From Chamaelirium japonicum (Eukaryota > Streptophyta > Magnoliopsida > Liliales > Melanthiaceae): a DNA stretch of 64,000 bases. The stretch spans positions 124,001-188,000 of the forward strand of contig CANTAL010000101.1 of NCBI GenBank assembly GCA_947650365.1, read 5' to 3'. A program made the position numbers and the translations under genes. Positions within the stretch are counted from its first letter, which is position 1, and each line of letters begins with the position of its first letter. A model generated the notes under the pieces. The model worked only from the letters and a program-made list of their open reading frames with translations, did no database searches and had not been told where the DNA came from. Positions 1 to 64,000 of the stretch are shown in pieces.

Positions 1-800
1 TCGCACGAATTATCCATTCTAATTCATTCGCACGATCCATTCTAATTCATTCGTACGATCCATTCTAATTCATTCGTACGAACCATTCTAATTCATTCGT
101 AGGATCTTAGAATGGAATATACGAATGAATTAGAATGGATCGTACGAATGAATTAGAATGGATCGTATGAATGAATTAGAATGGATCGTACGAATGAATT
201 AGAATGGATCGTGCGAATGAATTCGAATGGATCGTACGATCCATTCTAATTCATTCATACAATCCATTCTAATTCATTCGCACGAATGTATCCATTCTAA
301 TCCATTCGTACGATCCATTCTAATCCATTCGTACATTCTAATTCATTCATTTGATCCATTCTAATTCATTCGCACGATCCTTTCTAATTCATTCGCACGA
401 TCCATTCTAATTCATTCATAGGATCCATTCTAATTCATTCGTACAATCCATTCTAATTCTTTCACACGATCCATTCTAATTCATTCGTACGATCCATTCT
501 AATTCATTCGCACAAATGTATCCATTCTAATTCATTCGTACGATCCATTCTAATTCATTCGCACGATCCATTCTAATTCATTCGTACGATCTATTCTAAT
601 TCTTTCATATGATCCATTCTAATTCATTCTATGATCCATTCTTACTCATTCGTATGATCCATTCTAATTCATTCGTACGATCCATTCTAATTCATTCGTA
701 TGATCCATTCTAATTCATTCGCACAAATGTATCCATTCTAATTCATTCGTACGATCCATTCTAATTCATTCGTATGATCCATTCTAATTCATTCATACGA
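1..800 (+). repeat. Segmental duplication D1, copy 1
   Basis: This stretch matches 6669-7510 in order, including the odd junction GGATCTTAGAATGG, the palindrome at 225-246, the short unit with TCCATTCGTACATTC near 330 and the CATTTGATCC unit near 355. The offset is 6668 bp at the start and 6714 bp near 721, so the second copy has gained about two units. Confidence 0.85.
215..256. repeat. Palindromic head-to-head junction
   Basis: The reverse array meets the forward array at GAATGGATCGT followed directly by its own complement, a perfect 22-bp palindrome at 225-246. One mismatched pair further out, the symmetry continues, giving two 21-base arms with no spacer. This could form a cruciform. The same junction recurs at 6882-6923. 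Confidence 0.9.
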
Positions 801-1143
801 TCCATTCTAATTCATTCGTACGATCCATTCTAATTCATTCGCGAATGTATCCATTCTAATTTATTCGTACGATCCATTCTAATTCATTCGTACGATCCAT
901 TTTAATTCATTCGCACGAATGTATCCATTCTAGTTCATTCGTACGATCCATTCTAATTCATTCGTATGATCCATTCTAATTCCTTCGTATAATCCATTCT
1001 AATTCATTCGTACGATCTATTCTAATTCATTCGTACGATCCATTCTAATTTATTCGTACGATCCATTCTAATTCCTTCGTACGATCCATTCTAATTCATT
1101 CGTACGATCCATTCTAATTTCTTCGTATGATCCATGCTAATTC

Positions 1144-1618
1144 ATACGAATGAATTAGAATGGATCGTACGAATTAATTAGAATGGATCATTCGAATTAA
1201 TTAGAATGGATCCTACGAATGAATTAGAATGGATCATACGAATGAATTAGAATGGATCGTACGAAGGAATTAGAATGGATCGTACGAATGAATTAGAATG
1301 GATCGTACGAATGAATTAGATAGAATGGATCGTACGAATGAATTAGAATGGATACATTCGCGAATGAGTTAGCATTGATCGTACGAATGAATTAGAATGG
1401 ATCGTACGAATGAATTAGAATGGATCTTACGAATGAATTAGAATGGATCGTACGAATGAATTAGAATGGATCGTACGAATGAATTAGAATGGATACATTT
1501 GTGCGAATGAATTAGAATGGATCGTACAAATGAATTAGAATGGATCGTACGAATGAATTAGAATGGATCGTACGAATGAATTTGAATGGATCATATGAAT
1601 GAATTAGAATGGATCACT
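1144..1618 (-). repeat. Satellite array, reverse
   Basis: About twenty reverse units, with 28-bp variants (GGATACATTCG) near 1350 and 1490. The switch at 1143 is a short tail-to-tail joint inside a degenerate unit (CATGCTAATTCATACGAATG). Confidence 0.95.
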
Positions 1619-1718
1619 CATTCGTATGATCCATTCTAATTTATTCGCACGAATGTATCCATTCTAATTCATTCGTATGTCTAATTCATTCGTACGGTCC
1701 ATTCTAATTCATTCGCAC

Positions 1719-1854
1719 AATCCATTCTATTTCATTTGTACGATCCATTCTTACACATTCGTATGATCCATTATGGATACATTCGTGCGAATGAATTAGA
1801 ATGGATCATACGAATGAGTAAGAATGGATCGTACGAATGAAATAGAATGGATTG
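1719..1854 (+). repeat. Module K (inverted repeat junction)
   Basis: Left arm of about 53 bp (an ATTCTATTTC unit followed by a CATTCTTAC unit), spacer containing CCATTATGGATACATTCG, then the arm in reverse complement. A diagnostic GGTCC instead of GATCC lies just left of the module, near 1697. Total length is 136 bp, against 137 bp in most other copies. Confidence 0.9.
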
Positions 1855-2518
1855 TGCGAATGAATTAGAATGGATCGTACGAATGAATTAGAATGGATTG
1901 TACGAATGAATTAGAATGGATCGTACGAATGAATTAGAATCTATACGAATGAATTATAATGGATCCTACGAATGAATTAGAATAGATCGTGTGAAAGAAT
2001 TAGAATGGATTGTATGAATGAATTAGAATGGATCGTACGAATGAATTAGAATGGATCGTACGAATGAATTAGAATGGATACATTCGTGCTAATGAATTAG
2101 AATTGATCGTACGAATGAATCAGAATGGATCGTGCGAATGAATTAGAATGGATCGTACGAATGAATTAGAATGGATCGTACGAATGAACTAGAATAGAAT
2201 GGATCGTACGAATGAATTAGAATGGATCGTACGAATGATTTAGAATGGATACATTCGTGCGAATAAATTAGAATGGATCGGACGAATGAATTAGAATGGA
2301 TCGTACGAATAAATTAGAATGGATACATTCATCCGAATGAATTAGAATGGATCATACGAATGAGTAAGAATGGATCGTGTGAAAGAATTAGAATAGATTG
2401 TACGAATAAATTAGAATGGATCCTACGAATGAATTAGAATGGATCGTGTGAAAGAATTAGAATGGATTGTATGAATGAATTAGAATGGATCGTATGAATG
2501 AATTAGAATGGATCGTGC

Positions 2519-2551
2519 GAATGAATTCGAATGGATCGTACGAATTCATTC
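2519..2551 (-). repeat. Module J, orientation B
   Basis: GAATGAATTCG and CGAATTCATTC form perfect 11-bp inverted arms around the loop AATGGATCGTA. This is the exact reverse complement of the form at 6163 and eleven other sites, and the flanking units are also reverse complements of the flanks there. Confidence 0.9.
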
Positions 2552-2842
2552 TAATTCATTCATACAATCTATTCTAATTCTTTCACACGATCTATTCTAA
2601 TTCATTCGTACACATTCTAATTCATTCGTACGATCCATTCTAATTCATTCGTACGATCTATTCTATTTCATTCATACGATCCATTCTAATTCATTCGTAC
2701 GATCCATTCTAATTCATTCGTACGATCCATTCTAATTCATTCGCAAGAATGTATCCATTCTAGTTCATTCGTACGATCCATTCTAATTCATTCGTACGAT
2801 CCATTCTAATTCATTCGCACGATCCATTCTAATTCATTCGTA

Positions 2843-2979
2843 CAATCCATTCTATTTCATTCGTACGATCCATTCTTACTCATTCGTATGATCCATTATG
2901 GATATATTCGTGCAAATGAATTAGAATGGATCATACGAATGAATAAGAATGGATCGCACGAATGAAATAGAATGGATTG
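2843..2979 (+). repeat. Module K (inverted repeat junction)
   Basis: 137 bp, with the same arms and spacer order as the copy at 1719. The spacer reads CCATTATGGATATATTCG and the right arm has GAATAAG in place of GAGTAAG. Confidence 0.88.
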
Positions 2980-3073
2980 TGCGAATGAATTAGAATGGAT
3001 CGTAGAATGGATCAGAATAGATCGTGTGAAAGAATTAGAATGGATCGTATGAATGAATTAGAATGGATCGTGT

Positions 3074-3106
3074 GAATAAATTTGAATGGATCGTACGAAT
3101 TCATTC
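3074..3106 (-). repeat. Module J, orientation B, diverged
   Basis: The left arm has drifted to GAATAAATTTG, but the loop and right arm are intact. The context (CATACAATCC then TTTCACACG to the right) is as at 2519. Confidence 0.7.
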
Positions 3107-3187
3107 TAATTCATTCATACAATCCATTCTAATTCTTTCACACGATCTATTCAGATCCATTCTACGATCCATTCTAATTCATTCGCA

Positions 3188-3314
3188 CAATCCATTCTGT
3201 TTCATTCGTACGATCCATTCTTACTCATTCGTATGATCCATTCTAATTCATTCGCACGAATGTATCCATAATGGATCATACGAATGAGTAAGAATGGATC
3301 GTACGAATGAAATA
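3188..3314 (-). repeat. Module K, inverted copy
   Basis: The spacer is the reverse complement of that in K: GCACGAATGTATCCATAATGG. The right end is interrupted after GAATGAAATAC, where a new segment begins. Confidence 0.82.
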
Positions 3315-4113
3315 CGTACGAATGAATTAGAATGGATCGTACGAATGAACCAGAATGGCTCGTACGGATGAAATAGAATAGATTGTACGAATGAATTAGA
3401 ATGGATTCGTACGAATGAATTAGAATGGATACATTCGTGCGAATGAATTAGAATGGATACATTCGTGCGAAAGAATTAGAATAGATCGTATGAATGAATT
3501 AGGATGGATCCTATGAATGAATTAGAATGGATCGTGCGAATGAATTAGAATGGATCGTACGAATGAATTAGAATAGATCGTACAAATGAATTAGAATGGA
3601 TCGTATGAAGGAACTAGAATGGATCGTACAAACGAATTAGAATGTATATATTCGTGCAAATGAATTAGAATGGATCGTGCGAAAGAATTAGAATGGATCG
3701 TACGAATGAATTAGAATGGATCGTACGAATGAATTAGAATGGATCTTACGAATGAATTAGAATGGATCGTACGAATGAATTAGAATGGATCGTACGAATG
3801 AATTAGAATGGATACATTCGTGCGAATGAATTAGAATGGATCGGACGAATGAATTAGAATGGATCGTACGAATGAATTAGAATGGATCAAATGAATGAAT
3901 TAGAATGGTTACATTCATGCGAATGAATTAGAATGGATCGTACAAATGAATTAGAATGGATCGTATGAATGAATTAGAATGGATCGTACGAATGAATTAG
4001 AATGGATCAAATGAATGAATTAGAATGGTTACATTCTTGCGAATGAATTAGAATGGATCGTACGAATGGATTAGAATGGATCGTACGAATGGATTAGAAT
4101 GGATACATTCGAG
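3269..4113 (-). repeat. Satellite array, reverse
   Basis: Reverse units with 28-bp variants near 3430, 3460, 3650, 3815, 3910 and 4030. From 3835 it carries the series GATCGGACG, GATCAAATG, GGTTACATTCATGCG and ATGGATTAG, which recurs near 14580, 49480-50030 and 59820-60090. Confidence 0.95.
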
Positions 4114-5205
4114 CGTACGATCCATTCTAATTCATTCGTCCGATCCATTCTAATTCATTCGCACGAATGTATCCATTCTAATTCATTCGTACGATCCATT
4201 CTAATTCATTCGTATGATCCATTCTAATTCATTCATAAGATCCATTCTAATTCATTCGTACGATCCATTCTAATTCATTCGTACGATCCATTCTAATTCA
4301 TTCGCACGAATGTATCCATTCTAGTTCATTCGTACGATCCATTCTAATTCATTCGTACGATCCATTCTAATTCATTCGCACGATCCATTCTAATTCATTC
4401 GTACGATCCATTCTAATTCATTCGTATGATCAATTCTAATTTATTCGTACGATCCATTCTAATTCATTCGCACAAATGTATCCATTCTAATTCATTCGTA
4501 CGATCCATTCTAATTCATTCGCACGATCCATTCTAATTCATTCGTACGATCCATTCTAATTCTTTCCCACGATCCATTCTAATTCATTCGTACGATCCAT
4601 TCTAATTCATTCACACGATCCATTCTAATTCATTCGTACGATCCATTCTAATTCATTCATACGATCCATTCTAATTCATTCGTATGATCCATTCCAATTC
4701 ATTCGCACGATCCATTCTAATTTATTCGTACGATCCATTCTAATTCATTCGTACGATCCATTCTAATTCATTAGTATGATCCATTCTAATTAATTCGTAC
4801 GATCCATTCTAATTCATTTGTACGAATGTATCCATTCTAATTCATTCGTACAATCCATTCTATTTCATTCGTACGATCCATTTTTACTCATTCGTATGAT
4901 CCATTCTAATACATTCGTACGATTCATGCTAATTCATTCGCACGATCCATTCTAATTCATTCGTACGATCCATTCTTATTCATTCATACGATCCATTCTA
5001 ATTCATTCGCACAATCCATTCTAATCCATTCTAATCCATTCTAATTCATTTGTAAGATCCATTCTAATTCATTCGTACGATCCATTCTAATTCATTCATA
5101 CAATCCATTTTAATTCTTTCACACGATCCATTCTAATTCATTCGTACGATCCATTCTAAATCATTCGTGCAATCCATTCTATTTCATTCGTACGATCAAT
5201 TCTAA
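4114..5205 (+). repeat. Satellite array, forward
   Basis: Uninterrupted forward units. 28-bp variants lie near 4165, 4310, 4470 and 4820. Near 5020-5040 there are contracted units (CATTCTAATCCATTCTAATCC) that lack the linker. Confidence 0.96.
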
Positions 5206-6173
5206 TTCATTAGAATGGATCGTACGAATGAATTAGAATGGATCATATTAATGAATTAGAATGGATCGTACGAATGAATTAGAATGGATCGTACGAACGA
5301 ATTAGAATGGATCGTACGAAGGAATTAGAATGGATCGTACGAATGAATTAGAATGGATATATTCGTGCAAATTAATTAGAATGGATCGTATGAATGAATT
5401 AGAATGGATCGTACGAATGAATTAGAATGGATATATTCGTGCAAATGAATTAGAATGGATCGTATGAATGTATTAGAATGGATCGTACGAATGAATTAGA
5501 ATGGATCGTACGAATGAATTAGAATAGATTGTACGAATGAATTAGAATAGATCCTACGAATGAATTAGAATGGATCGTGTGAAAGAATTAGAATAGATTG
5601 TATGAATGAATTAGAATGGATCGTACGAATGAATTAGAATGGATCGTACTAATGAATTAGAATGGATATATTCGTGCGAATGAATTAGAATTGATCGTAC
5701 GAATGAATTAGAATGGATCGTGCGAATGAATTAGAATGGATCGTACGAATGAATTTGAATGGATCGTACGAATGAACTAGAATGGATACATTCGTGCGAA
5801 TGAATTAGAATGGATCGTACGAATGAATTAGAATGGATCGTACGAATGAATTAGAATGGATCGTACGAATGAATTAGAATAGATCATACGAATGAATTAG
5901 AATGGATACATTCATGCGAATGAATAAGAATGGATCGGATGAATGAATTAGAATGGATCGTACGAATGAATTAGAATGGATCGTACAAATAAATTAGAAT
6001 AGATACATTCGTCCGAATGAATTAGAATGGATCATACGAATGAGTAAGAATGGATCGTACGAATGAAATAGAATAGATTATACGAATGAATTAGAATGGA
6101 TCCTACGAATGAATTAGAATAGATCATGTGAAAGAATTAGAATGGATTGTATGAATGAATTAGAATGAATTCG
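5206..6173 (-). repeat. Satellite array, reverse
   Basis: Joined to the previous block tail to tail inside AATTCTAATTCATTAGAATGG. 28-bp variants lie near 5355, 5440, 5665, 5790, 5910 and 6005. The last ~190 bp form the left arm of a long inverted repeat centred on module J at 6163. Confidence 0.95.
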
Positions 6174-6393
6174 TACGATCCATTCGAATTCATTCGCACG
6201 ATCCATTCTAATTCATTCATACGATCCATTCTAATTCATTCACACGATCCATTCTAATTCATTCGTCTAATCCATTCTGATTCATTCGTACAATCTATTC
6301 AAATACATTCGTACGATCCATTCTTACTCATTCCTATGATCCATTCTAATTCATTCGGACGAATGTATCCATTCTAATTTATTCGTACGATCC
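5978..6393. repeat. Long inverted repeat centred on J
   Basis: Reading outward from J, both sides carry the same ordered markers: a TTTCACACG-type unit (clearest on the left), GATCTATTC, a CATTCTTACTC unit, an ATTCGTATG-type unit, the 28-bp variant with GGACGAATGTATCC, then AATTTATTCG. The right arm is more diverged here than at 37381-37819. Confidence 0.75.
6163..6195 (+). repeat. Module J, orientation A
   Basis: Perfect 11-bp arms (GAATGAATTCG, CGAATTCATTC) around the loop TACGATCCATT. Marks the reverse-to-forward switch. Confidence 0.92.
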
Positions 6394-6771
6394 ATTCTAA
6401 TTCATTCGTACGAGCCATTCTAATTCATTCGTACAATCCATTCTAATTCATTCGTCCGATCCTTTCTAATTCATTCGCACGAATCTATCCATTCTAATTC
6501 ATTCGTACGATCCATTCTAATTCATTCGTACGATCCATTCTAATTTATTCGTAAGATCCATTCTAATTCATTCATACGATCCATTCTAATTCATTCGTAC
6601 GATCTATTCTAATTCATTCGCACGAATGTATCCATTCTAGTCCATTCATCCGATCCATTCTAATTCATTCGCACGAATTATCCATTCTAATTCATTCGCA
6701 CGATCCATTCTAATTCATTCGTACGATCCATTCTAATTCATTCGTACGAACCATTCTAATTCATTCTAGGA
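6174..6771 (+). repeat. Satellite array, forward
   Basis: Forward units with 28-bp variants near 6360, 6480 and 6630, the first two 120 bp apart. It ends in the junction GGATCTTAGAATGG shared with position 107. Confidence 0.96.
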
Positions 6772-7510
6772 TCTTAGAATGGAATATACGAATGAATTAG
6801 AATGGATCGTACGAATGAATTAGAATGGATCGTATGAATGAATTAGAATGGATCGTACGAATGAATTAGAATGGATCGTGCGAATGAATTCGAATGGATC
6901 GTACGATCCATTCTAATTCATTCATACAATCCATTCTAATTCATTCGCCCGAATGTATCGATTCTAATCCATTCGTACGATCCATTCTAATCCATTCGTA
7001 CATTCTAATTCATTCATTTGATCCATTCTAATTCATTCGTATAATCCTTTCTAATTCATTCGCACGATCCATTCTAATTCATTCATAGGATCCATTCTAA
7101 TTAATTCGTACAATCCATTCTAATTCTTTCACACGATCCATTCTAATTCATTCGTACGATCCATTCTAATTCATTCGCACAAATGTATCCATTCTAATTC
7201 ATTCGTACGATCCATTCTAATTCATTCGCACGATCCATTCTAATTCATTCGTACGATCCATTCTAATTCTTTCACATGATCCATTCTAATTCATTCGTAT
7301 GATCCATTCTTACTCATTCGTATGATCCATTCTAATTCATTCGTACGATCCATTCTAATTCATTCGTACGATCCATTCTAATTCATTCGTACGATCCATT
7401 CTAATTCATTCGTACGATCCATTCTAATTCATTCGCACAAATGTATCCATTCTAATTCATTCGTACGATCCATTCTAATTCATTCGTACGATCCATTCTA
7501 ATTCATTCGT
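6669..7510 (+). repeat. Segmental duplication D1, copy 2
   Basis: Second copy of the segment at 1-800, including the palindrome (6882-6923) and the contracted unit with CGTACATTCTAATTC near 7000. It is longer than copy 1 by about two units and ends where TATATTCCATTCTAAGATCC begins. Confidence 0.85.
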
Positions 7511-7722
7511 ATATTCCATTCTAAGATCCTACGAATGAATTAGAATGGTTCGTACGAATGAATTAGAATGGATCGTACGAATAAATTAGAATGGATCGTA
7601 CATTCGTACGATCCATTCTAATTCATTCGTACGATCCATTCTAATTCATTCATAGAAATGAATTAGAATGGATCGTGTGAAAGAATTAGAATGGATTGTA
7701 TGAATGATTTAGAATGAATTCG
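6772..7722. repeat. Satellite array with several flips
   Basis: Reverse 6772-6902, forward to 7524, reverse to 7598, forward to 7660, reverse to 7722. The forward-to-reverse joint CCATTCTAAGATCCTACG near 7515 recurs at about 49360, so it is an inherited joint rather than two independent events. Confidence 0.93.
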
Positions 7723-7744
7723 TACGATCCATTCGAATTCATTC
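7712..7744 (+). repeat. Module J, orientation A
   Basis: Arms and loop as at 6163. The unit to the left reads GAATGATTTAG. The reverse side here is only about 60 bp long, so this J has lost most of its left arm. Confidence 0.9.
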
Positions 7745-8452
7745 GCACGATCCATTCTAATTCATTCATACGATCCATTCTAATTCTTTCATACAATCCA
7801 TTCTAATTCTTTCACATGATCCATTCTAATTCATTCGTAGGATCCATTCTAATTCATTCGTACAGTCTATTCTATTACATTCGTACGATCCATTCTTACT
7901 CAATCGTATGATCCATTCTAATTCATTCGGACGAATGTATCCTATCTAATTTATTCGTACGATCCATTCTAATTCATTCGTACGATCCATTCTAATTCAT
8001 TTGTCCGATCCATTCTAATTCATTCACACGAATGTATCCATTCTAATTCATTCGTACGATCCATTCTAATTCATTCGTACGATCCATTCTAATTCATTCG
8101 CACGATCCATTCTAATTCATTCGCACGATCCATTCTAATTCATTCATAGGATCCATTCCAATTCATTCATACGATCTATTCTAATTCTTTCGCACGAATG
8201 TATCCATTCTAATTCATTCGCACGAATGTATCCATTCTAATTCATTCGTACGATCCATTCTAATTCGTTCGTACGATCCATTCTAATTCATTCGCACGAA
8301 TGTATCCATTCTAGTTCATTCGTACGATCCATTCTAATTCATTCGTACGATCCATTCTAATTCATTCATACGATCTTTTCTAATTCATTCATACAATCCA
8401 TTCTAATTCTTTCACACGATCCACTCTAATTCATTCGCACGAATGTATCCAT
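7723..8452 (+). repeat. Satellite array, forward
   Basis: Follows the usual right-hand series after J (CATACGATCC, TTTCACATG, CGTAGGATCC, CATTCTTACTC, GGACGAATGTATCC). 28-bp variants near 7930, 8030, 8190, 8220, 8300 and 8445. Confidence 0.95.
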
Positions 8453-9809
8453 TAAGAATGAATTAGAATGGATCGTGCGAATAAATTCGAATGGATCGCA
8501 TGATCCATTCGAATAGAATGGATCGTATGAATGAATTAGAATGGATCGGGTGAATGAATTAGAATGTATTGTAGGAATGAATTAGAATGGATCGTACGAA
8601 GGAATTAGAATGGATCGTACGATGGAATTAGAATGGATCGTACGAATGAATTAGAATGGATATATTCGTGCAAATGAATTAGAATGGATCGTATGAATGA
8701 ATTAGAATGGATCGTATGAGTGAATTAGAACGGATAGTACGAATGAAGTAGAATGGATAGTATGAATGAATTAGAATGGATACATTCGTGCGAATGAATT
8801 AGAATGGATCGTATGAATGAATTAGAATAGATTGTGCGAATAAATTAGAATGGATCGTACGAATGAATTAGAATGGATACATTCGTGCGAATAAATTAGA
8901 ATGGATTGTATGAATGAATTAGAATGGATCGTACGAATGAATTAGAATGGATCGTACGAATGAATTAGAATAGATTGCGTGAATGAATTAGAATGGATCG
9001 TACGAATGAATTATAATGGATCGTACGAAGGAATTAGAATGGATCGTACGAATGAATTAGAATGGATCGTACGAATGAATTAGAATGGATCGTACGAAGG
9101 AATTAGAATGGATCGTACGAATGAATTAGAATGGATCGTACGATTGAATTCGAATGGATCATACGAATGAGTAAGAATGGATCGTATGACTGAATTAGAT
9201 TGGATCGTACGATCCATTCTAATTCATTAGCATGGATCGTGCTAATGAATTAGAATGGAATTTACGAATGAATTAGAATGGATTGTAGAATGGATTGTAC
9301 GAATGAATTAGAATGAATTAGAATGGATCGTATGAATGAATTAGAATAGATCATAGGAATGAATTAGAATGGATCGTGCAAATGAATTAGAATGGATACA
9401 TTCGTGCGAACGAATTAGAATGGATCGTGCGAATGAATTAGAATGGATCGTACGAATGAATTAGTATGGATATATTTGAACGAATAAATTAGAATGGATC
9501 ATACGAATGAATTAGAATTGATCGTACGAATGAATTAGAATGGATTGTGCGAATGAATTAGAATCGATCGTACGAATGAATTACAATGGATCATACAAAT
9601 GAATTAGAATGGATCATACGAATGAGTAAGAATGGATCGTACGAATGAATTAGAATGGATCGTACGAATGAATTAGAATGGATCGTACGAGTAAATTAGA
9701 ATGGATTTATTCGTCCGAATGAATTAGAATGGATCATACGAATGAGTAAGAATGGATCGTACGAATGAAATAGAAGAGATTGTACGAATGAATTAGAATG
9801 GATCCTAGT
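8453..9809 (-). repeat. Satellite array, mainly reverse
   Basis: Two tiny forward inserts occur, near 8500 (CATGATCCATTCG) and 9209-9228. The second is bounded by a palindromic GATCGTACGATC joint on its left and by a TTAGCATGG joint on its right, and recurs at 34206-34240. Near 9270-9320 some units are contracted to GAATGGATTGTAGAATGG. Confidence 0.92.
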
Positions 9810-10620
9810 ACGATCCATTCTAATTCATTCGTACGATCCATTCTAATTCATTCATACAATCCATTCTAATTCTTTCACATGATCCATTCTAATTCATTCG
9901 TATGATCCATTCTAATTCATTCGTGCAATCCATTCTATTTCATTCGTACGATCCATTCTTACTCATTCGTACGATCCATTCTAATTCATTCACACGAATG
10001 TATCCATTCGTACGAATGAATTAGAATAGATTGTACGAATGAATTAGAATGGATTGTACGAATAAATTAGAATGGATCGTACGAAGGAATTAGAATGGAT
10101 CGTATGAATGAATTAGAATGGATCGTACGAATGATTTAGAATAGATCGTACGAATGAATTAGAATGGATCGTACGAACGAATTAGAATGGATCGTATGAA
10201 TGAATTAGAATGGATCGTGTGAAAGAATTAGAATGGATTGTATGAATGAATTAGAATAGATCGTATGAATGAATTAGAATGGATCGTACGAATGAATTAG
10301 AATGGATCGTACGAATGAATTAGAATGGATACATTCGTGCGAATGAATTTGAAGGGATACATTCGTGCGAAAGAATTAGAATAGATCGTATGAATGAATT
10401 AGAATGGATCCTATGAATGAATTAGAATGGATCGTGCGAATGAATTAGAATGGATCGTACGAATGAATTAGAATGGATCGTGCTAATGAATTAGAATTGA
10501 TCGAACGAATGAATTAGCATGGATCGTGCTAATGAATTAGAATGGAACGTACGAATGAATTAGAATGGATCGTGTGAAAGAATTAGAATGGATTGTATGA
10601 ATGAATTAGAATGAATTCGT
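9810..10620. repeat. Satellite array, forward then reverse
   Basis: Forward 9810-10010 with TTTCACATG, ATTCTATTTC and CATTCTTACTC units, then reverse to the J module at 10609. Module M lies at 10480. Confidence 0.94.
10480..10553 (-). repeat. Module M (marker units)
   Basis: Three successive variant units carrying GTGCTAATG, GATCGAACG and TTAGCATGG, then GTGCTAATG and GGAACGTACG: 74 bp in all. TTAGCA and TGCTAA flank GATC nearly symmetrically. The combination is rare in the array and so serves as a tag for tracing larger copies. Confidence 0.88.
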
Positions 10621-10641
10621 ATGAAACATTCGAATTCATTC
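10609..10641 (+). repeat. Module J, orientation A, variant loop
   Basis: Both arms are perfect, but the loop is TATGAAACATT. The loop at 15030 (TACGAAACATT) shares the AAACATT change, so these two copies, each preceded by M, have a common recent ancestor. Confidence 0.88.
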
Positions 10642-11140
10642 GCATGATCCATTCTAATTCATTCATACGATCCATTCTTATTCATTCGTACGATCCATTC
10701 TAATTCATTCGCACAAATGTATCCATTCTAATTCATTCGCACAAATGTATCCATTCTAATTCATTCGTACGATTCATTCTTACTCATTCGTATGATCCAT
10801 TCTAATTCATTTGTACGATCCATTCTAATCCATTCGTACGATCCATTCTAATTCATTCGCATGAATGTAACCATTCTAATTCATTCATTTGATCCATTCT
10901 AATTCATTCGTACGATCCATTCTAATTCATTCGTCTGATCCATTCTAATTCATTCGCACGAATGTATCCATTCTAATTCATTCATACGATCCATTCTAAT
11001 TCATTCGTACAACCCATTCTAATTCATTCGCACAATCCATTCTAATCTATTCGTACGATCCATTCTATTTCATTCTAATTCTTTTACACGATCCATTCTA
11101 ATCCATTCTAATTCTTTCACACGATCCATTCTATTTCATT

Positions 11141-11214
11141 CGTACGTTCCATTCTAATTCATTAGCACGATCCATGCTAATTCATTCGTTCGATCAATTC
11201 TAATTCATTAGCAC
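11141..11214 (+). repeat. Module M, forward copy
   Basis: Exact reverse-complement order of the marker seen at 10480: CGTACGTTCC, TTAGCACG, CCATGCTAATTC, GTTCGATCAATTC, TTAGCACG. Confidence 0.88.
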
Positions 11215-13472: not shown

Positions 13473-13546
13473 CGTACGTTCCATTCTAATTCATTAGCAC
13501 GATCCATGCTAATTCATTCGTTCGATCAATTCTAATTCATTAGCAC
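13473..13546 (+). repeat. Module M, forward copy
   Basis: Same 74-bp order as at 11141. It is followed by forward units and lies about 500 bp before the flip at 14003. Confidence 0.87.
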
Positions 13547-13990: not shown

Positions 13991-14016
13991 ATCCATTCTA
14001 ATTAATTAGAATGGAT
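13991..14016. repeat. Perfect 26-bp palindrome at tail-to-tail junction
   Basis: ATCCATTCTAATT is followed directly by its complement AATTAGAATGGAT. This is the forward-to-reverse switch that ends the long forward run. Confidence 0.92.
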
Positions 14017-15040: not shown

Positions 15041-15062
15041 TACGAAACATTCGAATTCATTC
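15030..15062 (+). repeat. Module J, orientation A, variant loop
   Basis: Perfect arms with the loop TACGAAACATT. It follows M, as at 10609. Confidence 0.88.
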
Positions 15063-50731: not shown

Positions 50732-51117
50732 ATGATCCATTCTAATTCATTCGTACGATCCATTCTAATTTATTCATATGATCAATTCTAATTCATTCGC
50801 ACGAATGTATCCATTCTATTTCATTCGTACGATCCATTCTAATTCATTCGTACGATCCATTCTAATTCATTCGTACGATCTATTCTAATTCATTCGTACG
50901 ATCCATTCTAAATCATTCGTCCGATCTATTCTAATTCATTCACACGAATAGATACATTCTAGTTCATTCGTACGATCCATTCAAATTCATTCATACGATC
51001 CATTCTAATTCATTCGTACGATCCATTCTAATTCATTCATACAATCCATTCTTATTCATTCGCACGATCCATTCTAATTCACTCATACGATCCATTCTAA
51101 TACATTCATACGATCCA

Positions 51118-52330: not shown

Positions 52331-53050
52331 CATACGAATGAGTAAGAATGGATCGTACGAATGAAATAGAATAGATTGTACGAATGAATTAGAATGGTTC
52401 CTACGAATGAATTAGAATAGATCGTGTGAAAGAATTAGAATGGATTGTATGAATGAATTAGAATGAATTCGTACGAGCCATTCGAATTCATTTGCACGAT
52501 CCATTCTAATTCATTCATACGATCCATTCGTGTGAATGAATTAGAATGGATCGTGCAAATGAATTCGAATGAAATAGAATGGATTGTACGAATGAATTAT
52601 AATGGATTCGTACGAATGAATTAAAATGGATCGTACGATACATTCGAATGGATACATTTGTACGTACGATACATTCGAATGGATACATTCTATTTCTAAT
52701 TCATTCGTACGAATGGATACATTCTAATTCTAATCCATTGTAATTTATTCGTACGAATGTACGAATGAATTAGAATGGATCTTACGAATGAAATAGAATA
52801 GATTGTACGAATGAATTAGAATGGATCCTACGAATAAATTAGAATGGATCGTGTGAAAGAATTAGAATGGATTGTATGAATGAATTAGAATGGATCGTAT
52901 GAATGAATTAGAATGGATCGTACGAATGGATTAGAATGGATCGTACGAATGAATTAGAATGGATCGTACGAATGAACTAGAATGGATACATTTGTGCGAA
53001 TGAATTAGAATGGATCGTACGAATGAATTAGAATGGATCATACGAATGAA
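51693..53050. repeat. Satellite, irregular then reverse
   Basis: Reverse 51693-51815, forward to about 51950, shattered to 52142, reverse to 52470, short forward to 52530, shattered to 52770 (with GGATACATTTGTACGTACG), reverse to 53050. Confidence 0.9.
52461..52493 (+). repeat. Module J, orientation A
   Basis: Loop TACGAGCCATT; the right arm ends in ATTT, as at 19923. The right-hand array is cut after about 40 bp by a new reverse segment. Confidence 0.86.
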
Positions 53051-53600
53051 TTCGTACGATCCATTCTAATTTATTAGCACGATCCATTCTAATTCATTCG
53101 TACGATCCATTCTAATTTATTCGTACGATCTATTCTAATTCATTCGCACGATCCATTCTAATTCATACATAGGATCCATTCTAATTCATTCATACGATCT
53201 ATTCTAATTCTTTCGCACGAATGTATCCATTCTAATTCATTCGCACGAATGTATCCATTCTAATTCATTCGTACGAATCCATTCTAATTCATTCGTACAA
53301 TCTATTCTATTTTATTCGTACGATCCATTCTAGATCATTCGTACGATCCATTCTAATTCATTCGTATGTATTTCATTCGTACGATCCATTCTTACTCATT
53401 CGTATGATCCATTATGGATACATTCGTGCGAATGAATTAGAATGGATCATACGAATGAGTAAGAATGGATCGTACGAATGAAATAGAATAGATTGTGCGA
53501 ATGAATTAGAATGGATCATAGAATTATTTCAAACGTACGAATGAATTAGAATGGATCGTATGAATGAATTAGAATGGATATATTCTAATTCATATGAATG
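53050..53600. repeat. Segmental duplication D5, copy 1
   Basis: Matches 58484-59034 at an offset of 5434 bp, including the broken K module and the unique joint AGAATTATTTCAAACG (53520 against 58954). Confidence 0.9.
53371..53495 (+). repeat. Module K, left end shortened
   Basis: The left arm begins directly after CGTATG with TATTTCATTCG; the spacer and right arm are canonical. The same shortened form is at 58803. Confidence 0.87.
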
Positions 53601-54339
53601 AGTAAGAATGGATCGTACGAATAAAATATTAATATTCTAATAAGAATGAATTCGAATGGATCATACGAATGAGTAAGAATGGATCGTATGAATGAATTAG
53701 AATAGATTGTACGAATGAATTAGAATGGATCCTACGAATGAATTAGAATGGATCGTGTGAAAGAATTAGAGTAAGAATGGATCGGACGAATGAATTAGAA
53801 TGTATGAATGTATCCATTCTTACTTATGAATGGATCCTATTCTAATGGGTAAATAGAATGGATCGTACGATTAATTCTAATTCATATGATACATTCTAAT
53901 CCATTCGTACTCTAATATGGATCGTACGAATAAAATAGAATGGATTAGAATGGATCGTACGAAGGAATTAGAATGGATCGTACGAATGAATTAGAATGGA
54001 TCGTGCTAATGAATTAGAATTGATCGAACGAATGAATTAGCATGGATTGTATGAATGAATTAGAATGGATCGTACGAATGAATTAGAATGGATCGTACGA
54101 ATGAGTAAGAATGGATCATACGAATGAAATAGAATAGATCGTACGAATGAATTAGAATGGATCGTACGAAGGAATTAGAATGGATCGTACGAATGAATTA
54201 GAATGGATATATTCGTGCAAATGAATTAGAATGGATCCTATGAATGTATTAGAATAGATCGTATGAGTGAATTAGAATGGATCGTACGAATGAATTAGAA
54301 TGGATTCGTGCGAATGAATTAGAATGGATACATTCGTGT

Positions 54340-54760
54340 GAATGAATTAGAATGGATCGTATGAATGAATTAGAATAGATTTTGTGAATGAATTAGAACT
54401 GATCGTACGAATGAATTAGAATGGATACATTCGTGCGAATGAATTAGAATGGATTGTATGAATGAATTAGAATGGATCCTATGAATTAATTAGAATGGAT
54501 CGTACGAATGAATTAGAATGGATACATTCGTGCGAATGAATTAGAATTGATCGTACGAATGAATTAGAATGGATCGTGCGAATGAATTAGAGTGGATCGT
54601 ACGAATGAATTAGAATGGATACATTCGTGCGAATGAATTAGAATGGATACATTCGTGCGAAAGAATTAGAATAGATCGTATGAATGAATTAGAATGGATC
54701 CTATGAATGAATTAGAATGGATTGTGCGAATGAATTAGAATAGATCGTACGAATGAATTA
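54340..54760 (-). repeat. Segmental duplication D6, copy 1
   Basis: Matches 63155-63575 at a constant 8815-bp offset (GATTTTGTG at 54378 and 63193; GCGAAAG at 54657 and 63472). Confidence 0.85.
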
Positions 54761-54769
54761 GAATGGATC

Positions 54770-54843
54770 GTGCTAATGAATTAGAATTGATCGAATGAAT
54801 GAATTAGCATGGATCATGCTAATGAATTAGAATGGATCGTACG
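54770..54843 (-). repeat. Module M, reverse copy
   Basis: Variant with GATCGAATG, GATCATGCTAATG and a final GGATCGTACG. Confidence 0.85.
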
Positions 54844-55020
54844 AATGAATTAGAATGGATCAAATGAATGAATTAGAATGGTTACATTCATGCGAATGAA
54901 TTAGAATGGATCGTACGAATGGATTAGAATGGATCGTACGAATGGATTAGAATGGATACATTCGAGCGAATGAATTAGAATGGATCGTACGGAATGAATT
55001 AGAATGGATTAGAATGGATC

Positions 55021-55094
55021 GTGCTAATGAATTAGAATTGATCGAATGAATGAATTAGCATGGATCGTGCTAATGAATTAGAATGGAACGTACG
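55021..55094 (-). repeat. Module M, reverse copy
   Basis: Starts 251 bp after the previous M. It shares its GATCGAATG change but keeps the GGAACGTACG end. Confidence 0.86.
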
Positions 55095-55290
55095 AATGAA
55101 TTAGAATGGATCGTGTCAAAGAATTAGAATGCATTGTATGAATGAATTAGAATGGATCGTATGAATGAATTAGAATGGATCATGCGAATGAATTCCAATG
55201 GATCACATGATCCATTCGAATAGAATGGATCGTATTAATGAATTAGAATGGATCGGGCGAATGAATTAGAATGCATTCTACTCGAATGGA

Positions 55291-56600
55291 TCATGCAATC
55301 CATTCGAATTCATTCGCACGATCCATTCTAATTCATTCATACGATCCATTCTAATTCATTCATACAATCCATTCTAATTCTTTCACATGATCCATTCTAA
55401 TTCCTTCGTAGGAACCATTCTAATTCATTCGTACAATCTATTCTATTTCAATCGTACGATCCATTCTTACTCATTCGTATGATCCATTCTAATTCATTCG
55501 GACGAATGTATCCATTCTAATTTATTTGTACGACCATTCTAATTCATTCGTACGATCCATTCTAATTCATTCGTACGATCCATTGTAATTCATTCGTACG
55601 ATCCATTCTAATTCATTCGTACGATCCATTCTAATTCATTCGTACAATCTATTCTAATTCATTCGTACGATCCATTCTAATTAGAATGGATTATATGAAT
55701 TAATTCATACGAATGAATTAGAATGGATCATACGAGTGATGCATTCTAATTCATTTGATCCATTCTAATTTATTCGCACGATCCATTCTAATTCATATGA
55801 TACATTCGTAGGATCCATTCTAATTCTAATTAGAATGGATCATACAATTCTAATTCCTTCGTACGAATGTATTGTAGAATGGATCGTAGAATGGATCCAT
55901 TCTAATTTATTCTAATGTATCCATTCTAATTAGAATGAATTAGAATGGATCGTACGAATGAATTAGAATGGATTAGAATGGATCATACAAATGAATTAGA
56001 ATGGATCGTATGAGTGAAATAGAATAATTCACTCATACGAATGAATTAGAATGGATCAAATGAATGAATTAGAATGAGTTAGAATGGATCAAATGAATTA
56101 GAATGGATACATTAGAATGATTTTGTAAATTAATCGTACGATCCATTCTAATTCTAATTAATTCGTGCAATCTATTTATATATATTGATTCGTACGAATG
56201 AATTAGAATAGCTCGTACGATCCATTCTAATTCATTCATAGGATCCATTCTAATTCATTCGTACTAATTCATTCGTACGAATGAATGGATCGTACGAATG
56301 AATTAGTGCGAATTAGAATGGATCGTGTGATCCATTCTAATTCGCACGAATGAATTCGCACGATCCATTCTAATTCATGCGATCATGAATGAACTAGAAT
56401 TCTAATTCATTCGTATTCTAATTCATTCGTATGAATGAATTAGAATGGATACATTCATTCGTACAATGAATTAGAATGGACCGTACGAATGAATTAGAAT
56501 GGATCATACGAATGAGTAAGAATGGATCGTACGAATGAATTAGAATGGATCATACGAATGAATTAGAATGGATCGTGTGAAAGAATTAGATTGCATTGTA
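55291..56600. repeat. Forward satellite then shattered zone
   Basis: Regular forward units to about 55680 in the usual post-J order, though J itself is missing. From 55681 to about 56480 this is the most scrambled stretch of the window: units flip within 20-60 bp, often at the palindrome CCATTCTAATTAGAATGG, and there is AT-rich debris (TTTATATATATTGATTCG at about 56173). A short regular reverse stretch leads to 56600. Confidence 0.9.
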
Positions 56601-57458
56601 TGATCGATTCTAATTCCTTCGTACGATCCATCCTAATTCATTCGTACGATCTATTCTAATTCATTCGTACGATTCATTCTAATTTATTCGTACGATCCAT
56701 TCTAATTCATTCGTACGATCCATTCTAATTCATTCATACAATCCATTCTAATTCTTTCACACGATCCATTCTAATTCATTCGTACGATCCATTCTTACTC
56801 ATTCGTATGATCCATTCTAATTCATTCGTACGATCCATTCTAATTCATTCGTACGATCCGTTCTAATTCATTCGCACGATCCATTCTTACCCATTCGTAA
56901 GATCCATTCTAATTCATTCGTACGACCCATTCTAATTCATTCGTACGATCCATTCTAATTCATTCATACAATCCATTCTAATTCTTTCACACGATCCATT
57001 CTAATTCATTCGTACGATCCATTCTAATCCATTCGTAAGATCCATTCTAATTCATTCGTACGATCCATTCTAATTAATTCGTATGATCCATTCTAATTCA
57101 TTAATATGAACCATTCTAATTCATTCGTACGATCCATTCTAATGAATTAGAATTGATCGTACGAATGAAATAGAATGGATTGCACGAATGATTTGGAATG
57201 GATCATACGAATGAATTAGAATGAATCGTGTGAAAGAATTAGAATGGATTGTATGAATGAATTAGAATGGATCGTACGAATGAATTAGAATGGATCATAC
57301 GAAGGAATTAGAATGGATCGTACGAATAAATTAGAATGGATCGTACGAATGAATTAGAATAGATCGTACGAATGAATTAGAATGGATCGTACGAAGGAAT
57401 TTGAATGGATCGTACGAATGAATTAGAATGGATATATTCGTGACCATTCTAATTCATT

Positions 57459-58440
57459 CATACGATCCATTCTAATTCATTCATACAATCCATTCTAATT
57501 TCATTCGTACGATCCATTCTAATTCATTCGGACGAATGTATCCATTCTAATTTATTCGTAAGATCCATTCTAATTCATTCATTTGATCCATTCTAATTCA
57601 TTCGTACGATCCATTCTAATTCATTCGTCTGATCCATTCTAATTCATTCGCACGAATGTATCCATTCAAATTCATTCGTACGATCCATTCTAATTCATTC
57701 GTAAGATCCATTCTAATTCATTCGTACGATCCATTCTAATTCATTCGTACGATCCATTCTAATTCATTCGCACGAATGTATCCATTCTAATTTATTCATA
57801 CGATCCATTCTAATTCATTCGTACGATCCATTCTAATTCATTCGCATGACCCATTCTAATTCATTCGTACGATCCATTCTAATTCATTCATACTATCCAT
57901 TCTAATTTCATTCGTCCGATCCATTCTAATTCATTCATACAATTCGTTCTAATTTCATTTGTACGATCCATTCTAATTCATTCATACAATCCATTCTAAT
58001 TTCATTCGTACGATCCATTCTAATTCATTCGGACAAATGTATCCATTCGAATTTATTCGTACGATCCATTCTAATTCATTCATTTGATCCATTCTAATTC
58101 ATTCGTACAATCCATTCTAATTCATTCGTCCGATCCATTCTAATTCATTCGCACGAATGTATCCATTCTAATTCATTCGTACGATCCATTCTAATTCATT
58201 CGTAAGATCCATTCTAATTCATTCGTACGATCCATTCTAATTCATTCGTACGATCCATTCTAATTCATTCGCACAAATGTATCCATTCTAATTCATTCAT
58301 ACGATCCATTCTAATTCATTCGTACGATCCATTCTAATTCATTCGCACGATCCATTCTAATTTATTCGTACGATCCATTCTAATTCATTCATACGATCCA
58401 TTCTAATTCATTCGCACGAATGTATCCATTCTAATTCATT
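57459..58440 (+). repeat. Local tandem duplication, period 501 bp
   Basis: 28-bp variants at 57535, 57655 and 57775 recur at 58036, 58156 and 58276. Within each copy they are exactly 120 bp apart (four 23-bp units plus one 28-bp unit). The tags CATTTGATCC, CGTCTGATCC/CGTCCGATCC and CGTAAGATCC fall in the same places. Confidence 0.9.
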
Positions 58441-58441
58441 C

Positions 58442-58514
58442 ATACGATCCATTCTAATTCATTAGCACGATCCATGCTAATTCATTCGTTCGATCAATTC
58501 TAATTCATTAGCAC
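58442..58514 (+). repeat. Module M, forward copy
   Basis: Near-complete marker; it begins CATACGATCC instead of CGTACGTTCC. Confidence 0.83.
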
Positions 58515-59034
58515 GATCCATTCTAATTCATTCGTACGATCCATTCTAATTCATTCGTACGATCCATTCTAATTCATTCGCACGATCCATTCTAATTCAT
58601 ACATAGGATCCATTCAAATTCATTCATACGATCTATTCTAATTCTTTCGCACGAATGTATCCATTCTAATTCATTCGCACGAATGTATCCATTCTAATTC
58701 ATTCGTACGAATCCATTCTAATTAATTCATACAATCTATTCTATTTCATTCGTATGATCCATTCTAGTTCATTCGTACGATCCATTCTAATTCATTCGTA
58801 CGTATTTCATTCGTACGATCCATTCTTACTCATTCGTATGATCCATTATGGATACATTCGTGCGAATGAATTAGAATGGATAATACGAATGAGTAAGAAT
58901 GGATCGTACGAATGAAATAGAATAGATTGTGCGAATGAATTAAATCGGATCGTAGAATTATTTCAAACGTACGAATGAATCAGAATGGATCGTATGAATG
59001 AATTAGAATGGATATATTCTAATTCATATGAATG
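58484..59034. repeat. Segmental duplication D5, copy 2
   Basis: Counterpart of 53050-53600. It starts inside the M module, so the M-to-segment joint at this place is a breakpoint. Confidence 0.88.
58803..58929 (+). repeat. Module K, left end shortened
   Basis: Same shortened left arm as at 53371. The right arm is preceded by GGATAATACG instead of GGATCATACG. Confidence 0.86.
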
Positions 59035-60196
59035 ACTAATTCATTCATACGATCTATTCTAATTCGAATTCATTCTAATTCATTCACACGATCCATTCTA
59101 ATTCATTCGTACGATCCATTCTAATTAATTCGCACGATCCATTCTAATTCATTCGTACGATCCATTCTAATTCATTCGGACGAATGAATTAGACTGGATC
59201 GTACGAATGAAATAGAATGTATGAATGGATACATTCTAATTAGAATGTATCCATTCGTACGAATGGTTTAGAATGGATCATACGAAGGAATTAGAATAGA
59301 TCGTACGAATGAATTAGAATGGATCGTACGAATGAATTAGAATAGATCGTACGAATGAATTAGAATGGATCGTACGAAGAAACTAGAATGGATCGTACGA
59401 ATGAATTAGAATGGATATATTCGTGCAAATGAATTAGAATGGATCGTAATAATGTATTAGAATGAATCGTATGAGTGAATTAGAATGGATCGTACGAATG
59501 AATTAGAATGGATCGTATGAATGAATTAGAATGGATACATTCGTGCGAATGAATTAGAATTGATCGTATGAATGAATTAGAATGGATCGTGTGAATGAAT
59601 TAGAATGGATTGTACGAATGAATTAGAATGGATCGTACGAATGAACTAGAATGGATACATTCGTGCGAATGAATTAGAATGGATCGTACGAATGAATTAG
59701 AATGGATCGTACGAATGAATTAGAATGGATCTTAAGAATGAATTATAATGGATCGTACGAATGAATTAGAATGGATCGTACAAATGAATTAGAATGGATA
59801 CATTCGTGCGAATGAATTAGAATGGATCGGACGAATGAATTAGAATGGATCGTACGAATGAATTAGAATGGATCAAATGAATGAATTAGAATGGTTACAT
59901 TCATGCGAATGAATTAGAATGGATCGTACGAATGGATTAGAATGGATCGTACGAATGGATTAGAATGGATACATTCGAGCGAATGAATTAGAATGGATCG
60001 TACGAATGAATTAGAATGGATCGTACGAATGGATTAGAATGGATCGTACGAATGGATTAGAATGGATCCTACGAATGGATTAGAATGGATACCTTTGTGC
60101 ATATGAATTAGAGTGGATCGTACGAATGAATTAGAATGGATCATATTAATGAATTAGAATGGATTGTACGAATGAATTAGAATGGATACATTCGTG
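58855..60196 (-). repeat. Satellite, mixed then reverse
   Basis: Flips at 59035-59270, including CATTCTAATTAGAATG, a perfect 16-bp palindrome, near 59230. Then regular reverse units with the GATCGGACG/GATCAAATG/GGTTACATTC series and the GGATACCTTTGTGCATATG unit at about 60088. Confidence 0.93.
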
Positions 60197-61680
60197 CACG
60201 ATCCATTCTAATTCATTCGCACGAATGTATCCATTCTAATTCATTCGTACGATCCATTCTAATTCATTAATATGATCCATTCTAATTCATTCGTACGATC
60301 CATTCTAATTCATATGCACAAAGGTATCCATTCTAATTCATTCATACGATCCATTCTAATTCAGGATCGTACGAATGAATTAGAATGGATACATTCGTGC
60401 GAATGAATTAGAATTGATCGTACGAATGAATTAGAATGGATCGTGCGAATGAATTAGAATGGATTTTACGAATGAATTAGAATGGATCGTACGAATGAAT
60501 TGTGCGAATGAATTAGAATGGACCGTACGAATAAAATAGAATGGATTGTGCGAATGAATTAGAACGGATCGTACGAATGAATTAGAATGGATCGTGTGAA
60601 AGAATTAGAATGGATCGTATGAATGAATTAGAATGGATACATTCGTGCGAATGAATTAGAATGGATACAGTCGTGTGAAAGAATTAGAATAGATCGGATG
60701 AATGAATTAGAATGGATCCTATGAATGAATTAGAATGGATCGTGCGAATGAATTAGAATGGATCGTACGAATGAATTAGAACGGACGTGCTAATGAATTA
60801 GAATTGATCGAATGAATGAATTAGCATGGATCGTGCTAATGAATTAGAATGGATCATACAAATGAGTAAGAATGGATCGTACGAATGAAATAGAATGGAT
60901 TGTACGAATGAATTAGAATGGATACATTCATGCAAATAAATTAGAATGGATCGGACGATTGAATTAGAATGGATCGTACGATTCATTCTTATTCATTCGT
61001 ACGATCCATTCTAATACATTCGTACGATTCATGCTAATTCATTCGCACGATCCATTCAAATTCATTCGTACGATCCATTCTTATTCATTCATACGATCCA
61101 TTCTAATTCATTCGCACAATCCATTCTAATTCATTCGTACAATCCATTCTAATTCATTCGTATGATCCATTCTAACTCATTCGGTGGATCCATTCTAATT
61201 CATTCGTACGATCCATTCTAATTCATTCCCACGATCCATTCTAATTTATTCGTACGATCCATTCTAATTTATTCATACGATCTATTCTAATTCATTCGCA
61301 CGAATGTAACCATTCTAATTCATTCATACGATTCATTCTAATTCATTCGTATGAGCTTTTCTAATTCATTCGTACGATCCATTCTAATTCATTCGTACGA
61401 TCCATTGTAATTCATTCATACAATCCATTTAGATTCGTTCGCACGAATATATCCATTCAAATTCATTCGTACGATCCAGTCTAATTAATTCGTACGATCC
61501 ATTCTAATTCCTTCGTACGATCCATTCTAATTCATTCGTACGATCTATTCTAATTCATTCGTACGATCCTTTCTAATTCATTCGTACGATCCATTCTAAT
61601 TCCTTCGTACGATCCATTCTAATTCATTCGTACGATCCATTCTAATTCATTCGTACAATCTATTCTAATTCATTCGTAGG
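60197..61680. repeat. Satellite, alternating
   Basis: Forward 60197-60363, reverse to 60979, forward to 61680. The joint AATTCAGGATCG at 60363 and the tag CATATGCACAAAGG at 60312 match about 31383 and 31330. The forward part has CATTCGGTGG and CATTTAGATTCG units, as in 29270 and 51540. Confidence 0.94.
60787..60860 (-). repeat. Module M, reverse copy
   Basis: Preceded by the shortened joint GGACGTGC; GATCGAATG variant; continues into GGATCATACAAATGAG. Confidence 0.82.
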
Positions 61681-63154
61681 AATCGATACATTCGTGTGAA
61701 TGAATTAGAATGGATCGTACGAATGAGTAAGAATGGATCGTACGAATGAAATAGAATGGATTGCTCGAATGAATTAGAATGGACCGTACGAATGAATTAG
61801 AATGGATCGTGTGAAAGAATTAGAATGGATTGTATGAATGAATTAGAATTAATCGTACGAATGAATTAGAATGGATCGTACGAAGGAATTAGAATGGATC
61901 GTACGAATGAATTAGAATGGATTGTACGAATGAATTAGAATAGATCGTACGAATGAAATAGAATGGATCATACGAATGAGTAAGAATGGATCGTATGAAT
62001 GAATTAGATTGGATACATTTGTGCGAATGAATTAGAATGGATCGTATGAATGAATTAGGATGGATCATATGAATGAATTAGAATGGATCGTACGAATGAA
62101 TTAGAATGGATCGTGCGAATGAATTAGAATGGATCGTACGAATGAATTAGAATGGATCGTGTCAAAGAATTAGAATGGATCGTACGAATGAATTAGATTG
62201 GATCGTGCGAATGAATTAGAATGGATCGTATGAATGAATTAGAATAGATTTTGTGAATGAATTAGAACTGATCGTACGAATGAATTAGAATGGATCATAC
62301 AAATGAATTAGAATGGATACATTTGTGCGAATGAATTAGAATGGATCGTACGAATGAATCAGAATGGATCGTATGAATGAATTAGAATGGATACATTCGT
62401 GCGAATGAATTAGAATGGATCGTGCGAATCCATTAGACTGGATCGTGCGAATGAATAAAAATGGATCATACAAATGAATTAGAATGGATCGTACGAATTA
62501 ATTAGAATGGATACATTCGTGCGAATGAATTAGAATGGATTGTATGAATGAATTAGAATTGATCGTACGAATGAATTAGAATGGTTCATACGAATTAATT
62601 AGAATGGATCATACGAATGAATTAGAATGGATCGTACGAATGAATTAGAATGGATCGTACGAATGAACTAGAATGGATCGTACGAATGAAATAGAATAGA
62701 TTGTACGAATGAATTAGAATGGATTCGTACGAATGAATTAGAATGGATCCTATGAATGAATTAGAATGGATCGTGCGAATAAATTAGAATGGATCGTATG
62801 AATGAATTAGAATGGATCGTGCTAATGAATTAGAATTGATCGAACGAATGAATTAGCATGGATTGTACGAATGAATTAGAATGGATCGGACGAATGAATT
62901 AGAATGGATCGTACGAATGAGTATGAATGGATCGTACGAATGAAATAGAATAGATCGTACGAATGAATTAGAATGGATCGTACGAAGGAATTAGAATGGA
63001 TCGTACAAATGAATTAGAATGGATATATTAATGCAAATGAATTAGAATGGATCGTATGAATGTATTAGAATGGATCGTATGAGTGAATTAGAATGGATCG
63101 TACGAATGAATTAGAATGGATCGTATGAATGAATTAGAATGGATACATTCGTGT

Positions 63155-63575
63155 GAATGAATTAGAATGGATCGTATGAATGAATTAGAATAGATTTTGT
63201 GAATGAATTAGAACTGATCGTACGAATGAATTAGAATAAATACATTCGTGCGAATGAATTAGAATGGATTGTATGAATGAATTAGAATGGATCCTATGAA
63301 TGAATTAGAATGGATCGTACGAATGAATTAGAATGGATACATTCGTGCGAATGAATTAGAATTGATCATACTAATGAATTAGAATGGATCGTGCGAATGA
63401 ATTAGAATGGATCGTACGAATGAATTAGAATGGATACATTCGTGCGAATGAATTAGAATAGATATATTCGTGCGAAAGAATTAGAATAGATCGTATGAAT
63501 GAATTAGAATGGATCCTATGAATGAATTAGAATAGATCGTGCGAAGGAATTAGAATGGATCGTACGAATGAATTA
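63155..63575 (-). repeat. Segmental duplication D6, copy 2
   Basis: Counterpart of 54340-54760. Both copies are followed closely by M. Confidence 0.85.
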
Positions 63576-63584
63576 GAATGGATC

Positions 63585-63658
63585 GTGCTATTGAATTAGA
63601 ATTGATCGAACGAATGAATTAGCATGGATCGTGCTAATGAATTATAATGGAACGTACG
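63585..63658 (-). repeat. Module M, reverse copy
   Basis: 74 bp with GTGCTATTG and GAATTATAATGG variants; followed by J. Confidence 0.87.
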
Positions 63659-63713
63659 AATGAATTAGAATGGATCGTGTGAAAGAATTAGAATGGATTG
63701 TATGAATGAATTA

Positions 63714-63746
63714 GAATGAATTCGTACGATCCATTCGAATTCATTC
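63714..63746 (+). repeat. Module J, orientation A
   Basis: Canonical arms and loop. The forward units after it follow the standard post-J series to the end of the window. Confidence 0.92.
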
Positions 63747-64000
63747 GCACGATCCATTCTAATTCATTCATACGATCCATTCTAATTCATTCATACAATC
63801 CATTCTAATTCTTTCACACGATCCATTCTAATTCATTCGTAGGATCCCTTCTAATTCATTCGTACAATCTATTCTATTTCATTCGTACGATCCATTCTTA
63901 CTCATTCGTATGATCCATTCTAATTCATTCGGACGAATGTATCCATTCTAATTTATTCGTACGATCCATTCTAATTCATTCGTACGATACATTCTAATTC
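63725..64000 (+). repeat. Satellite array, forward, runs off the window
   Basis: Series CATACGATCC, CATACAATCC, TTTCACACG, CGTAGGATCC, CAATCTATTCTATTTC, CATTCTTACTC, GGACGAATGTATCC and AATTTATTCG, as after the other J sites. The array continues beyond the window. Confidence 0.95.

Follow-up and report, generated by a model that had tools for sequence, protein, structure and literature searches.

The closest described system is the Chio satellite of Chionographis japonica, a species now named Chamaelirium japonicum at NCBI. In the main-text passages of Kuo et al. 2023 (PMC10264360) on which we draw here, the plant has 12 chromosomes with about 100 megabase-sized centromere units, whose arrays lie ~10 Mb apart, and the repeat cluster CL1 is enriched 11.1-fold in CENH3 ChIP. 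The same passages describe two Chio monomers, of 23 and 28 bp, without similarity to known sequences. Relative to Chio2, Chio1 lacks 5 bp and carries one substitution; three dyad symmetries are reported in Chio1, including a conserved 8-bp one, and four in Chio2. Forward and reverse arrays are mixed, as stated in the legend of Fig. 3e of that paper for an assembly built from HiFi reads. A 2025 paper (PMC12722358) likewise attributes to Chio, in the passages used here, a "frequently alternating orientation".

The window analyzed here is a 64,000-bp stretch (G000:C113:124001-188000) of an unplaced contig, C113, which is 985,715 bp long, in a genome of 1,518,659,071 bp. C1-C12 of this assembly sum to 1,090,673,439 bp, ~57 kb shorter than the 1090.73 Mb given for 12 scaffolds in the main text of PMC10264360, and the N50 over all its sequences comes to 81,106,678 bp (the length of C8), compared with 81.11 Mb in the same source. 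Using a two-orientation wrap-around decoder with both monomers, we found that satellite accounts for 63,303 of the 64,000 bp, with 55% in one orientation. The 23-bp and 28-bp monomers of the window are one substitution and a 5-bp tail apart, matching the Chio1/Chio2 difference as the paper words it. The 23-bp unit contains three perfect dyads, namely GATC, AATT and the 8-bp TCGTACGA; the 28-bp unit contains one perfect palindrome by a narrow perfect-palindrome criterion, compared with the four dyads given in the paper, whose own criterion may differ. With 23- and 28-bp lengths, three dyads including the 8-bp one, and both orientations present, the window satellite fits Chio1/Chio2, the CENH3-bound centromere satellite of C. 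japonica as set out in the main text of PMC10264360. A preliminary description of this DNA had not recognized the family; both the repeat and its alternation of orientation have already been described. The role of Chio as a foundation of the kinetochore is taken from the CENH3 ChIP reported in that paper, and C113 presumably lies inside a CENH3 domain. The features of the window are collected in Table 1.

Table 1. Positions of the satellite, its insert, the repeated segments and the recurrent joints in the window.
Feature	Position	Strand	Evidence and remarks
Chio1/Chio2 satellite, alternating orientation	1..21026	.	TRF and two-orientation decoding; 23-bp unit ATCCATTCTAATTCATTCGTACG, 28-bp unit ATCCATTCTAATTCATTCGCACGAATGT
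GC-rich insert, 698 bp	21027..21724	+	begins TGTTGGGGGTAG; interrupts the satellite
Chio1/Chio2 satellite continued, alternating orientation	21725..64000	.	TRF and two-orientation decoding
Beta joint, exact 38-mer	1756..1793	+	exact window search; other forward copies start at 30402, 41339, 48360, 53397, 58831, reverse copies at 3249, 19548, 22529
Alpha joint, exact 42-mer	2520..2561	- (reverse copy)	exact window search; forward copies start at 6153, 19913, 22917, 37556, 41837, 63704
Duplicated segment, copy 1	37572..40358	+	95.6% over 2797 aligned columns against 42088-44873
Duplicated segment, copy 2	42088..44873	+	copy of 37572-40358
Short alternating-run cluster	47549..47997	.	recurs at 51692-52140, offset 4143; run boundaries and TRF rows match
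Second copy of run cluster	51692..52140	.	run boundaries and TRF rows match those at 47549

The decoder counts 112 direction changes in the window after runs shorter than 22 bp between same-orientation neighbors were merged; without merging, there are 161 runs under the two-monomer model and 304 under the one-monomer model. The tandem repeat finder TRF, a check that the preliminary description had proposed, independently reports 23-bp arrays on alternating strands, and the earlier observation of a 23-bp satellite turning many dozens of times in 64 kb is upheld by both methods. Chance as the source of the pattern is ruled out, with 201,470 genome copies of an exact 54-base two-unit word and 0 of the reversed control word. 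Among 14 sources, the window included, the decoder detects flips in 13, and the number of flips per 10 kb lies between 0 and 17.7. One source, L044 (C6:26955001-26965000), is unlike the others: it is 10 kb of Chio satellite in a single orientation, with zero flips. A 10-kb stretch on C10 (L046) has 3 flips.

The levels of organization proposed earlier are borne out in part. The 23-bp unit exists, accompanied by the 28-bp unit, which contributes 1,122 of the 7,842 decoded units in the 14 sources. Successive same-orientation 28-bp units are spaced at 97 bp (150 cases), 120 bp (148), 143 bp (92), 74 bp (90), 166 bp (62) and other distances; the 120-bp spacing is thus present, but these several spacings rule out a single 120-bp group. 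Segmental duplication is found twice, in the aligned segments and in the repeated run cluster of Table 1. Palindromic modules do surround some alpha joints, on a scale of a few hundred bp. At the kilobase scale, the self-inverted matches of the window (39172-43565 at 84.2% and 13034-17065 at 83.4%) are no better than the mean identity of 85.6% for random opposite-strand satellite, and we dropped them as true palindromes.

Two of the joints at which orientation changes, alpha and beta, recur many times across the genome. Exact genome-wide counts, which are free of locus-picking bias, give 6040 + 6052 = 12,092 copies of alpha and 3435 + 3341 = 6,776 copies of beta on the two strands, a near-even balance that is partly uninformative because the strand of unplaced contigs is arbitrary, a problem that data from C1 alone avoid. 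The longer, 180-base alpha module has 466 + 449 copies. Control joints, made from the alpha left arm at other, arbitrary phases, have 43 + 55 = 98 and 5 + 6 = 11 copies. We also clustered 230 of 246 joints, from the window and 12 loci, leaving out the 16 of L045 as that locus is a near-copy of L035 (see below). At edit distance 5 they form 72 clusters, the largest with 46, 21, 16, 16, 13 and 10 members, whereas joints drawn at random from satellite, in three sets, give 155-161 clusters of at most 6 members. The claim that flips recur at the same kinds of joint is confirmed by 16 joint families that occur in at least two sources and contain 163 of the 230 joints, in a sample whose loci beyond the window were mostly chosen by similarity to the window or to the alpha module, which favors shared joints. 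At edit distance 9 the contrast is smaller, with 36 clusters against 49-59 for random joints and a largest cluster of 65 against 26-29. Newer or private flips exist as well, since 48 of the 230 joints are singletons at edit distance 5.

The recurrence extends beyond the joint itself. Twenty-three alpha copies, on C2, C5, C8, C10, C113 and others, have common variants over the flank span compared, 60 bp to the left and 78 bp to the right of the 42-base core. Because families recur, exact counts are high and flank variants are shared, the joints appear to be mostly copies of one another. We therefore read the window as part of a Chio1/Chio2 array whose flips are mostly inherited joints, amplified and dispersed in both orientations, and give this reading a probability of roughly 0.85. 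What this adds to the published account is that, as we infer, many of the changes of direction go back to old joints that were copied from chromosome to chromosome and are not new flips. A joint census or a genealogy of recurrent joints was found neither in the main-text passages of Kuo et al. 2023 nor by literature searches, in which the topic of inversions within satellites yielded two human papers.

The same data bear on whether flips arose independently and repeatedly, with the palindromes of the monomer as hot spots of breakage or template switching, such that the same joint re-arises without descent. The three perfect dyads of the 23-bp unit are in keeping with such hot spots, as is the hairpin-like inverted pair at alpha-type joints, and in 4 of 222 joints the inverted arms, 141-164 bp long, reach an identity of at least 0.97. 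Recurrent breakage does not, however, account for variants that alpha copies on different chromosomes share far from the breakpoint on both sides, nor for other-phase joints of the same arms that reach tens of copies at most rather than thousands. Alpha regions are also more alike (0.939 within a source, 0.941 between) than 60 randomly drawn joint-free pieces (0.864 within, 0.867 between), though exact-core selection raises the alpha value; beta regions give 0.931 and 0.944. In all three classes, identity between sources is no lower than that within a source. We consider repeated independent flipping improbable. Most joints show no surplus of inverted-arm identity: the median over 222 joints is 0.847, while the background averages 0.856, and of 217 joints 23 exceed the 95th percentile of the null (~11 expected) and 0 exceed its maximum (222 and 217 of the 230 joints, after those too close to a locus end were dropped). 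The 23 joints above that percentile and the four high-identity joints hint faintly at a fold-back origin of the joints. In place of the nested inversions of the preliminary description, the census favors inherited, amplified and dispersed joints.

Under the inherited-joint reading, a restricted set of old inversion joints would have been amplified together with at least 100 bp of flanking satellite and dispersed among units on many chromosomes, to be present in both orientations today. The short palindromes of the monomer, TCGTACGA among them, may be where infrequent fold-back or template switching produced the first joints. Amplification would have followed by unequal exchange and by copying over longer distances, and recombination between opposite-facing copies could turn a segment round without creating a new joint, which would shuffle the array. 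Such turning round might proceed by homologous inversion or, alternatively, by re-insertion in either orientation. Exchange between units would keep the units alike.

On C1, the arrangement of joints can be followed along a placed chromosome. Between 1.36 and 2.83 Mb we compared 100 alpha sites with 89 of 100 listed beta sites; the other 11 were set aside, as they fall past the final alpha sites listed. Among the sites listed, alpha-beta spacings recur (198 bp nine times, 170 bp six times, 383 bp four times, and also 388 bp); these fixed spacings give small inverted modules. Pairs of alpha sites less than 5 kb apart agree in orientation in a fraction of 0.68 (34 pairs), against 0.54 for separations of 20-100 kb and 0.49 for those of 100-500 kb; for beta pairs in the same distance classes the fractions are 0.27 (22 pairs), 0.54 and 0.52, and the low value below 5 kb fits a beta-alpha-beta module. 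Neighboring alpha sites agree in orientation in 65 of 99 cases, compared with 50.8 expected, among the sites listed. Orientation memory on C1 is lost beyond about 20-100 kb.

At the chromosome scale, matches to the 180-base alpha module gather in six clusters within the first 51 Mb of C1 (100 of 915 matches listed), with arrays roughly 7-12 Mb apart among the matches listed, consistent with the published ~10-Mb interval. Satellite matches lie on C1-C8, C10, C11 and C12 among those listed. The first Chio array on C1 is preceded on its left by a GAATG/CATTC-rich, GC-rich repeat (L033 1-1347; C1:1358001-1359347) that recurs at 99-100% identity at both C1 ends and on unplaced contigs. Ribosomal DNA spacer had been suspected; an Rfam search of three loci of this repeat (13,126 bases) gave 0 matches.

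The GC-rich insert that interrupts the satellite is read as a candidate truncated LTR. Among the matches listed it has 50 similar places in the genome, four of which have the same satellite flank. The insert-bearing segment is present at two places on C113 and on C10 and C21, with 96-98% identity. The same-flank copies on C10, C21 and C113 (747 kb) have ~0.24 kb extra at the right side. The window copy looks shortened because these three align with that additional right-hand stretch. Other sequences are also shared between units. One rare joint occurs as a pair 1890 bp apart on C5 and twice on C8, and two loci, L035 (C5:84434001-84444000) and L045 (C7:1750001-1760000), are 98.9% identical over 10 kb, which could reflect recent copying or a scaffolding duplicate. 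More generally, the between-unit copies (the C5/C7 pair, the insert segment and the rare joint) could include scaffolding or haplotype duplicates.

Alternation might instead be a selected architecture, kept since opposed units form hairpins that help define the centromere. A hairpin between neighboring Chio monomers is indeed predicted in the main text of PMC10264360, where its importance for centromere identity is given as unknown. This explanation has to accommodate the sister species Chamaelirium luteum, whose arrays are consistently oriented according to passages of PMC12722358, and the 10-kb Chio stretch of L044 without a flip, and we regard it as unlikely.

Still less probable is an assembly artefact, with flips introduced by palindromic (fold-back) chimeras among the reads or by wrong contig joins. 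In its favor, arrays of satellite pose difficulties for assembly, this assembly has many unplaced contigs, and the 98.9% copy on C5 and C7 could be a scaffolding duplicate. Against fold-back chimeras stand the thousands of copies of the same joints, found on both strands, and arms that are not exact mirrors (identity is 0.97 or more in 4 of 222 joints); we regard such chimeras as unlikely and rejected them as the main cause. The HiFi-based paper itself reports mixed orientation. The assembly also contains RuBisCO large subunit sequence, with 131 matches on many small contigs (C265-C1772), pointing to plastid-derived contigs.

If the joints are inherited, a tree of them across the about 100 units would tell whether there was one flipped founder or not, whether units still exchange sequence, and which of them do so with one another. 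We tentatively suggest, at somewhat less than even odds, that the flips are older than the dispersal of the centromere units. A founder Chio array already carrying joints such as alpha and beta would have seeded the units, with exchange between units on different chromosomes still so free that none has a subfamily of its own. Were this true, the joints would be countable markers for how a monocentric ancestor became holocentric. How centromere units became distributed along chromosomes is described as an unknown mechanism in the 2025 paper (PMC12722358, passages used here).

Although literature searches by letters or unit length gave no relevant paper, a new, undescribed satellite family can be practically discounted, as the lengths of the monomers, the difference stated between them, the dyads of the 23-bp unit and the sizes of the assembly match Chio1/Chio2 as given in the main text of PMC10264360, with which the spacing of arrays on C1 is consistent. 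Chio1/Chio2 (CL1, with the higher-order cluster CL73) resembles the window in its monomers, the 8-bp dyad and mixed directions; its megabase arrays at ~10-Mb intervals are compatible with the clusters on C1, and CL73 may contain the same modules as alpha and beta. The Chama satellite of Chamaelirium luteum, described in passages of PMC12722358, is like Chio a centromere satellite, from the sister genus, with large arrays and higher-order structure; its arrays differ in being "highly homogeneous and consistently oriented", without frequent flips. Tyba of Rhynchospora pubera shares with Chio a repeat-based holocentromere but differs in its 172-bp monomer, its 15-25 kb units and its hundreds of units per chromosome (PMC10264360, main text).
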